A program made the translations under genes and the position numbers. The notes under the pieces are model-generated. The model saw only the letters and a program-made list of their open reading frames with translations, did no database searches and was not told where the DNA came from. From Dehalogenimonas alkenigignens (GTDB lineage: Bacteria; Chloroflexota; Dehalococcoidia; Dehalococcoidales; Dehalococcoidaceae): DNA of 64,000 bases. The stretch covers positions 927,684 through 991,683 of the forward strand of contig NZ_KQ758903.1 in assembly GCF_001466665.1 (NCBI RefSeq), written 5' to 3'. Shown piece by piece: positions 22,096-29,683 of the stretch; position 1 is the stretch's first letter; every line of letters starts with the position of its first letter.

Positions 22096-22314
22096 TTAAT
22101 TATTCCGGTAGTTGTCGCCCAGGATGTTGCGGATTTCGGTTATGCGGCGTTCCAGCTCGGCGACGGCTTTTTCTAATTCGGCGCGGCGGCGGGAAGCCTC
22201 GGTGGTGAACACTCGGGAGATAAGCTGCTTTTGACCCAGGAGCTTGCGGCGTTCCGCCAGCAGTTCTTCCTCTTCCTTGCGGAACTCCCATTTGTAGTCT
22301 TCAAGGTTAGGCAT
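22096..22314 (-). CDS. small coiled-coil hypothetical protein
   Basis: A 72-residue, highly charged protein made almost wholly of predicted helix (EFRKEEEELLAERRKLLGQ, RAELEKAVAELERRITEIRN), compatible with a coiled coil. No family recognised. ATG 22314 with GAGGA five bases upstream is better than the ATG at 22359, which has no ribosome site. It is the first gene of the operon with the zincin, acetyltransferase and tag. Confidence 0.6.
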   Translation of the reverse strand: MPNLEDYKWEFRKEEEELLAERRKLLGQKQLISRVFTTEASRRRAELEKAVAELERRITEIRNILGDNYRNN

Positions 22315-22395
22315 GGCGTCCTCGTCCGGGGGAATTATACAGCAATCCACCTCGGCCATGACAACGCGACACTTACAGTCCGTTTCAGGAGGCTA

Positions 22396-22421
22396 TTGAC
22401 ACTTGGCGGGGGGGGTATAAT
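22396..22421 (+). promoter_or_regulatory. TTGACA / G8 tract / TATAAT promoter (possible phase variation)
   Basis: A perfect TTGACA (22396-22401) and perfect TATAAT (22416-22421) are separated by only 14 bp, and eight of those bases are an unbroken G run (22408-22415). The lipoprotein gene starts at 22436. Adding three G residues would restore the ideal 17-bp spacing, so slipped-strand change of the tract could switch expression. Inference from sequence only. Confidence 0.6.
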
Positions 22422-22435
22422 GGGTCGAGGGGTAA

Positions 22436-23230
22436 ATGAAAAAAGCCGGGTTTTTAAGGACAAGCTTCACATTTGCCGGTATAGTGCTATTGGTCGCCGT
22501 ACCTGGCTGTGACAGCTCAGTACCCAAAAACATCGTCGTTAAGCCGTCAACCTTTGCCCTCTACGCCGTCGAGGGTTTTGATCCAATGCCGGCAGAGTGT
22601 CGGGTGACGGTCGGTGGTGGTGAGCTCGAATGGATTGTCTCCTCGGACCAGCCGTGGCTGTGGGTTTATCCGTCATCCGGGAAGGCCACGGAGTCGATTG
22701 CGGTTCTTGCCGATACCGATAACTTCGAGCCGGGCATTTATACAGCGAACTTAACCCTGCGCGCCTTTGAAGGCCAGGGCGCAATCCGGAAGTTTCCGGT
22801 ACAGGTCACGGTTTTTAAGATGGACCAGCCGCTTAGCACAGGGTTTAAGGAAGGAACCGGGACGGCTTGGGGCAGCGGTGGTTTTACCTTGTCCCAGGGG
22901 CGGCTCGAAGTCGGAGTCTTAGAGTATGACGTGATGTCGCTTTCGTTGAACCGGGTAGTTAAAGCCGGCGAAATATGCCTGTTTGCCAGCCTGACCCTGA
23001 ATAATACGACCGACGAAGAATGGCAATTGCTTTTCGATGTCGGGGGATATACCGCCTTGGGCGGGCAGGCATCCTGGATGCTTGTTAACGGGCCTGTAAT
23101 AGGGAAGGCGGCTCTCAGCGTGCCGGCTGAACAGAGCAGGGAAATCAGGGTGCCCATCAGCTGGAGCCCGGGCATCGACAGCGTCCAGGTGAATGCGGTG
23201 GTCTACCCGGCCTATCCTCCGATTCCGTGA
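22436..23230 (+). CDS. lipoprotein with BACON-type domain
   Basis: A 264-residue exported protein. It has a signal sequence ending in a lipobox (LLVAVPGC, Cys25). Residues about 40-130 contain PWLWVYPSSGKATESIAVLADTDNFEPGIYTANLTLRA, which matches a BACON domain, a bacterial immunoglobulin-like fold thought to bind carbohydrate or protein. The C-terminal half is beta-rich and unassigned. GAGGGG five bases before the ATG is a good ribosome site. Expression may depend on the G-tract promoter immediately upstream. It converges on the TfoX-like gene. Confidence 0.78.
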   Translation: MKKAGFLRTSFTFAGIVLLVAVPGCDSSVPKNIVVKPSTFALYAVEGFDPMPAECRVTVGGGELEWIVSSDQPWLWVYPSSGKATESIAVLADTDNFEPGIYTANLTLRAFEGQGAIRKFPVQVTVFKMDQPLSTGFKEGTGTAWGSGGFTLSQGRLEVGVLEYDVMSLSLNRVVKAGEICLFASLTLNNTTDEEWQLLFDVGGYTALGGQASWMLVNGPVIGKAALSVPAEQSREIRVPISWSPGIDSVQVNAVVYPAYPPIP

Positions 23231-29302: not shown

Positions 29303-29683
29303 GATTTTCTCCTTATAATTCTATATGGCAGATATTCTAGTCCCCCGGGGTGGTTGAAGCAAGGCATTCCGGTCAGGTGAGTCGTGGGCTAGGCGTTTGT
29401 GTGGCGCGCTGATGATGTAAAAAACGATTGAAACGACTCGCTGCGGCGAAGATTGACGAGGAGGAGCGGCGCCGCAACCGTGGCACACCTGTGCTGATAA
29501 TCATACGGGTATTATAGCACTAGTGTTCCCAGTTCTGTCAATCGAGTTTTGTCGTTTTTGGTGCCATATTTTGTACCGTCGGTCATGAGCCAAATATTCC
29601 TGAGCCGCGCCGATATTCTCGACCTCCGCCCTGCTCACCTCAAGGTTTGACTTAACACCTTGAACCCGCCACAATGTGCGCCA
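29303..29683. other. long intergenic region with promoter-like and palindromic elements
   Basis: About 380 bases between the divergent aminopeptidase and prepilin-peptidase genes. No supported gene is seen. It holds a minus-strand promoter-like element (29511-29541), a GCGGCGCCGC palindrome near 29467-29476, and a 7-bp inverted repeat TCAAGGT (29640-29646)/ACCTTGA (29657-29663) just upstream of the prepilin-peptidase start. A 43-codon frame reading left from about 29508 lacks a ribosome site and is not proposed as a gene. A small RNA is possible but unproven. Confidence 0.4.
29511..29541 (-). promoter_or_regulatory. promoter-like element with TGC-TATAAT and TTGACA
   Basis: On the minus strand a perfect TTGACA (29541-29536) and a perfect TATAAT (29516-29511) are separated by 19 bp, and TGC directly before TATAAT makes an extended -10. 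The sequence GAACACTAGTGC overlaps the spacer, one base off a GAAC-N4-GTTC dyad. The next gene on this strand begins 209 bases downstream, implying a long leader or an unannotated short transcript. Confidence 0.5.

Follow-up and report, generated by a model that had tools for sequence, protein, structure and literature searches.

The hexamers TTGACA and TATAAT at positions 22396-22421 of the window, the whole 64,000-nucleotide stretch analysed here, probably make up a true promoter of the housekeeping sigma factor, weak and fixed, for a lineage-specific lipoprotein gene, with an unusually short, G-rich 14-bp spacer kept in two species. This reading is likelier than an active length switch, and as a tuning promoter the locus would be incipient at most. 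The features of the locus are as follows.

22096-22359, minus strand: divergent, conserved gene of 87 aa, with a 76-bp intergenic gap to the lipoprotein gene
22396-22401, plus strand: -35 hexamer TTGACA, perfect consensus, identical in the sister species (G009)
22408-22415, plus strand: G8 tract, abutting the -10 hexamer inside the 14-bp spacer 22402-22415; GAAGGGGG in the sister species, of the same length
22416-22421, plus strand: -10 hexamer TATAAT, perfect consensus, identical in the sister species
22408-22432, plus strand: G-quadruplex motif GGGGGGGG-TATAAT-GGG-TCGA-GGGG from a pattern scan, with the -10 hexamer as a loop
22427-22435, plus strand: expected start-site region and Shine-Dalgarno-like GAGGGG, as read from the sequence
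22436-23230, plus strand: gene for a probable lipoprotein of 264 aa, with a hydrophobic N-terminus ending VPGC and a BACON-like region at about residues 59-110

Promoter, G tract and probable lipoprotein gene

The locus reads TTGACA-CTTGGC-GGGGGGGG-TATAAT. Both hexamers are perfect and eight of the 14 spacer bases are a G run, exactly as located and counted in the earlier note. Judged by its conservation in the sister species and its position directly 5' of an ORF with a putative signal peptide, the hexamer pair is a real promoter. A homopolymeric G tract lies between -35 and -10, as in porA-type promoters, and a conserved consensus -35 and -10 lie upstream of a gene, as in promoters of the housekeeping sigma factor (sigma-70/A type). 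The spacer of the latter is usually about 16-18 bp; here it is 14 bp in both species, below that range, and none of the hexamers 16-18 bp upstream of the -10 looks like a -35. The -10 hexamer is about 14 nt from the ATG, and the leader from the expected start site would be about 7-9 nt, making the transcript near-leaderless. Translational phase variation was rejected, since the tract lies 5' of where transcription is expected to start and the ATG comes directly after an in-frame TAA (22433-22435). The G-quadruplex motif is one of three canonical motifs found by the pattern scan in the window. It requires the unbroken G8 and is absent from the sister species.

The window contains 37 runs of G5, none of G6 or G7, and one of G8, with no other run longer than five. 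Shuffled sequence gives 6.6 where the window has this single G8, so long G runs are depleted in the window and the tract at 22408-22415 stands out. The window lies at G000:C1:927684-991683 of a complete, Dehalogenimonas-type genome of 1.85 Mb, in which there are six tracts of at least eight G (8, 9, 11, 10, 8, and 8 G). Its 9-, 10-, and 11-G tracts were considered as further promoter spacers, and none is between promoter hexamers. Among 37 TTGACA-N12-20-TATAAT pairs in the genome, the 22396-22421 locus has the sole 14-bp spacer and the sole G8. Across the 11 genomes of the family, with 128 tracts of at least eight G and 283 perfect pairs (N10-21), about 0.01 coincidences of tract and pair are expected and two are observed, this locus and one in the sister species; since it was this very locus that led to the test, only a further case should be counted, and the chance of one is about 0.01.

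Two other promoter patterns were seen in the genome. A long-spacer promoter, TTGACA-N19/20-TATAAT, recurs at 29511-29541 of the window (minus strand) and at some 20 further sites across the genome (L119-L137). Its GTGC-TATAAT (extended -10, TGCTATAAT) follows GAAC or GTAC at a distance of a few bases. Many of the genes downstream of it read as housekeeping-like, putatively pheS, valS, ligA, hisS, fabF, accC, leuB, and ispD, and the promoter is also frequent in several other members of the genus. An operator for a global regulator is one possibility, a special promoter class another. A palindrome over the spacer, TTGACAGGC-N-GCCTGTATAAT, is common to three promoters whose spacers measure 16 bp (G000:C1:636095, 1757058, and 1848462) and is likely a shared operator.

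The earlier note described the downstream product as a surface lipoprotein with a BACON domain. The N-terminus of the probable lipoprotein is hydrophobic and ends VPGC in both species; proline is unusual at position -2 of a lipobox. The BACON assignment falls short, with a BACON_2 (PF19190) match of 20 bits against a cut-off of 25 bits, and no other named domain was found in the protein. A divergent BACON-like domain is plausible, since the relatives in the class, which are large proteins, align mainly over residues 27-127. AlphaFold on a two-row alignment gave a mean pLDDT of 36, which is not usable. The full-length ortholog (82% identity) is found only in the sister genome, and in most other members of the genus different genes, read for example as TfoX-like or thymidylate-synthase-like, stand after the 87-aa gene. 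On these grounds the lipoprotein gene and its promoter are specific to the two-species pair among the genomes compared. A weak match, to the C-terminal half, occurs at another place in one further genome (G004). Contig searches with the lipoprotein sequence and with the promoter pattern gave no matches in a set from which near genomes were perhaps left out.

Sister-species comparison and rival explanations

The orthologous promoter in the sister species is TTGACA CTTGGCGAAGGGGG TATAAT, and its spacer is also 14 bp. The hexamers and the first 12 bases 3' of the -10 are identical between the two species, and indels are found around this conserved promoter, of 3 nt just upstream and 1 nt just downstream. 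A porA-type repeat tract would be kept in orthologs; in this single comparison with one ortholog, the tract is GAAGGGGG against G8, with two A/G substitutions, no length change, and a longest run of G5. That the spacer length is conserved and the tract is not points to a weak and fixed promoter with a short spacer rather than to a length switch. Between the two species, the lipoprotein gene has dN 0.093, dS 0.359, and dN/dS 0.26, corresponding to purifying selection as an average that does not show expression in either strain. Based on this ratio, the gene appears to be used. Its use in the sister species with a G5 tract, where slippage is not expected, argues that the promoter is functional at 14 bp, if probably weak.

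For such a fixed promoter, it can be supposed that the perfect hexamers compensate for the short spacer, leaving a presumably low strength. The uninterrupted G8 is a state particular to this species, separated from the sister's tract by two A/G substitutions, not by slippage. Slippage at G8 would probably be rare; any added G's would lengthen the spacer to 15, 16, or 17 bp and raise expression. Against this explanation, 14 bp is an unusual spacing for perfect hexamers and is found in no other perfect pair of the genome, runs of G8 are scarce there, the class repeatedly shows long poly-G spacers upstream of surface-type genes, and the selection between the species, being an average, is no proof of expression in either strain.

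The earlier note had proposed a phase-variable promoter. The promoter itself stands, and the likeness to porA is apt, where expression is graded by the G count (PMC3639595), but variability of the tract is unlikely. It would imply slipped-strand mispairing, an isolate that is low or off at 14 bp and reaches 16-17 bp with two or three more G's, and a sister locus that is a locked derivative. The sister genome does have a G12 promoter with a 21-bp spacer before another secreted protein, and the class survey below found 24 poly-G spacers, with related sets differing in tract or spacer length. On the other hand, the ortholog has a spacer of equal length with a broken tract and its gene is still under purifying selection, a run of eight G is rather short for slippage, and the 14-bp state requires two or three G additions. 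Less probable again is a near-leaderless transcript driven by the -10 hexamer alone or with a regulator, with no need of TTGACA at 14 bp, where G8 would act, if at all, via the G-quadruplex motif overlapping the -10. The short distance from the -10 to the ATG, the predicted quadruplex (by pattern only), and the absence of a -35-like hexamer at 16-18 bp are consistent with it; TTGACA is nevertheless perfect and conserved in the sister species, and the motif is absent there, so it is not a conserved device. It is very improbable that the hexamer pair is a chance occurrence and not a promoter. Perfect pairs over N12-20 are expected about once per genome by the reversed-pattern control, but this one occupies an intergenic gap of 76 bp, directly 5' of an ORF, and is kept in the sister species.

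Poly-G spacers in the sister species and the class

The second coincidence in the family is the promoter at G009:C1:409608-409640 in the locus G009:C1:409608-412759 (L066/L085/L108), TTGACA ACTGATT G12 TA TATAAT, with perfect hexamers and a spacer of 21 bp. Loss of four G would give 17 bp. It is 77 nt upstream of a gene whose 1013-aa product has Big_1 domains, a calcineurin-like phosphoesterase, and an N-terminus resembling a signal peptide. This gene is absent at the matching place in the window's genome, where only a flanking gene matches. The two promoters of the same genus share perfect TTGACA and TATAAT, a G run between them, and a secreted protein downstream, but the one in the sister species differs in its 12 G, its 21 bp, its 77-nt leader, and its unrelated gene. 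It is a better candidate for phase variation than the window locus.

A survey of 393 Dehalococcoidia genomes with the pattern TTGAC-N3-16-G7-N0-6-TANAAT found 24 poly-G spacers, against 9 poly-C spacers in the same position and 1 match of a reversed control. For tracts of at least 10 bases there were 12 poly-G matches against 2 poly-C. The reversed control shows only that the matches are real promoters, as ordinary pairs exceed it similarly; enrichment was therefore judged by tract base rates, which are those of the family and not class-wide, and by poly-C. The bias of G over C is modest (24 against 9, p 0.014), and with poly-G collapsed to 18 related groups and poly-C left at 9, p is 0.12. 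No Rfam match was found at eleven of the poly-G promoter loci.

About half of the poly-G spacers precede secreted, surface-like, or DNA-methylase genes. These include two lipoprotein-like relatives (G054), fibre-like proteins in related sets (G027 and G081), a substrate-binding lipoprotein, a secreted endonuclease/phosphatase-like protein, and a C5 DNA methylase. Others are before a response regulator, TrkA-like, NifU-like, and Nudix genes, and a tRNA operon; names of genes lacking a Pfam match are sequence readings. Related sets within one genome differ in tract (G12/G13, G11/G10) or spacer (20/21). These differences are only suggestive of tract variation, as they come from single assemblies, some of them fragmented, in which homopolymer lengths are error-prone.

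The Phe-Leu-Gln-Asn tRNA operon has the promoter TTGACA-N18-TAAAAT in two congeneric genomes (G079 and G214), one carrying G9 and the other GTGGGGGGG, both at 18 bp. Switching of a tRNA operon is implausible, and G-run spacers therefore arise or persist for other reasons too. The equal length of the two promoters implies that a G-run spacer alone does not indicate phase variation. It can be speculated, tentatively and with considerable doubt, that Dehalococcoidia use poly-G spacers throughout the class as contingency switches of genes for secreted and surface proteins and DNA methylases. The sister G12 and the sets of G027, G054, and G081 would then be active switches and the window G8 a short or decaying member.

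Three of the poly-G promoters (L100, L101, and L106), in genomes of two families, have a common leader like TTTTGGAAAAACTAAACTATTAC. The genes after it appear to differ for L100 and L106, none was identified for L101, and there is no Rfam match. They may be copies of a shared promoter/leader cassette. Outside promoter spacers, G tracts of 15-19 G are seen in several genomes of the genus (G19 at L065, G18 at L067, and G15 at L050 and L051), apparently mostly in intergenic regions.

Known systems and significance

The poly-G spacer architecture is already known from Neisseria. In Neisseria meningitidis, the poly-G tract between -35 and -10 of porA varies over 9-11 G, and surface expression is full at 11G, half at 10G, and one-thirteenth at 9G (PMC3639595). 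The window locus resembles porA in its unbroken G tract in a sigma-70-type spacer before a surface-type gene, where a length change would alter the spacing. Unlike porA, which has been shown to vary, it is represented by one genome per species, with G8 and 14 bp, and the ortholog tract is broken at equal length. Like an ordinary housekeeping-sigma promoter it has consensus hexamers upstream of an ORF and is conserved from one species to the other, but its spacer is 14 bp, not the usual 16-18, and mostly G. As the earlier note supposed, phase variation appears to be unreported in this group: a search of the open-access literature found no paper joining phase variation with Dehalogenimonas, and its single match for Dehalococcoidia is, by title and abstract, a genome paper on a different bacterium.

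Simple-repeat phase variation has been described mostly in host-associated bacteria. Dehalococcoidia is a mostly free-living class that includes organohalide respirers. The window locus is a modest case, and the G12 promoter of the sister species and the class pattern are better leads. If the recurring poly-G promoters do switch, the cells of a clonal culture would differ in their surface proteins and DNA methylation.
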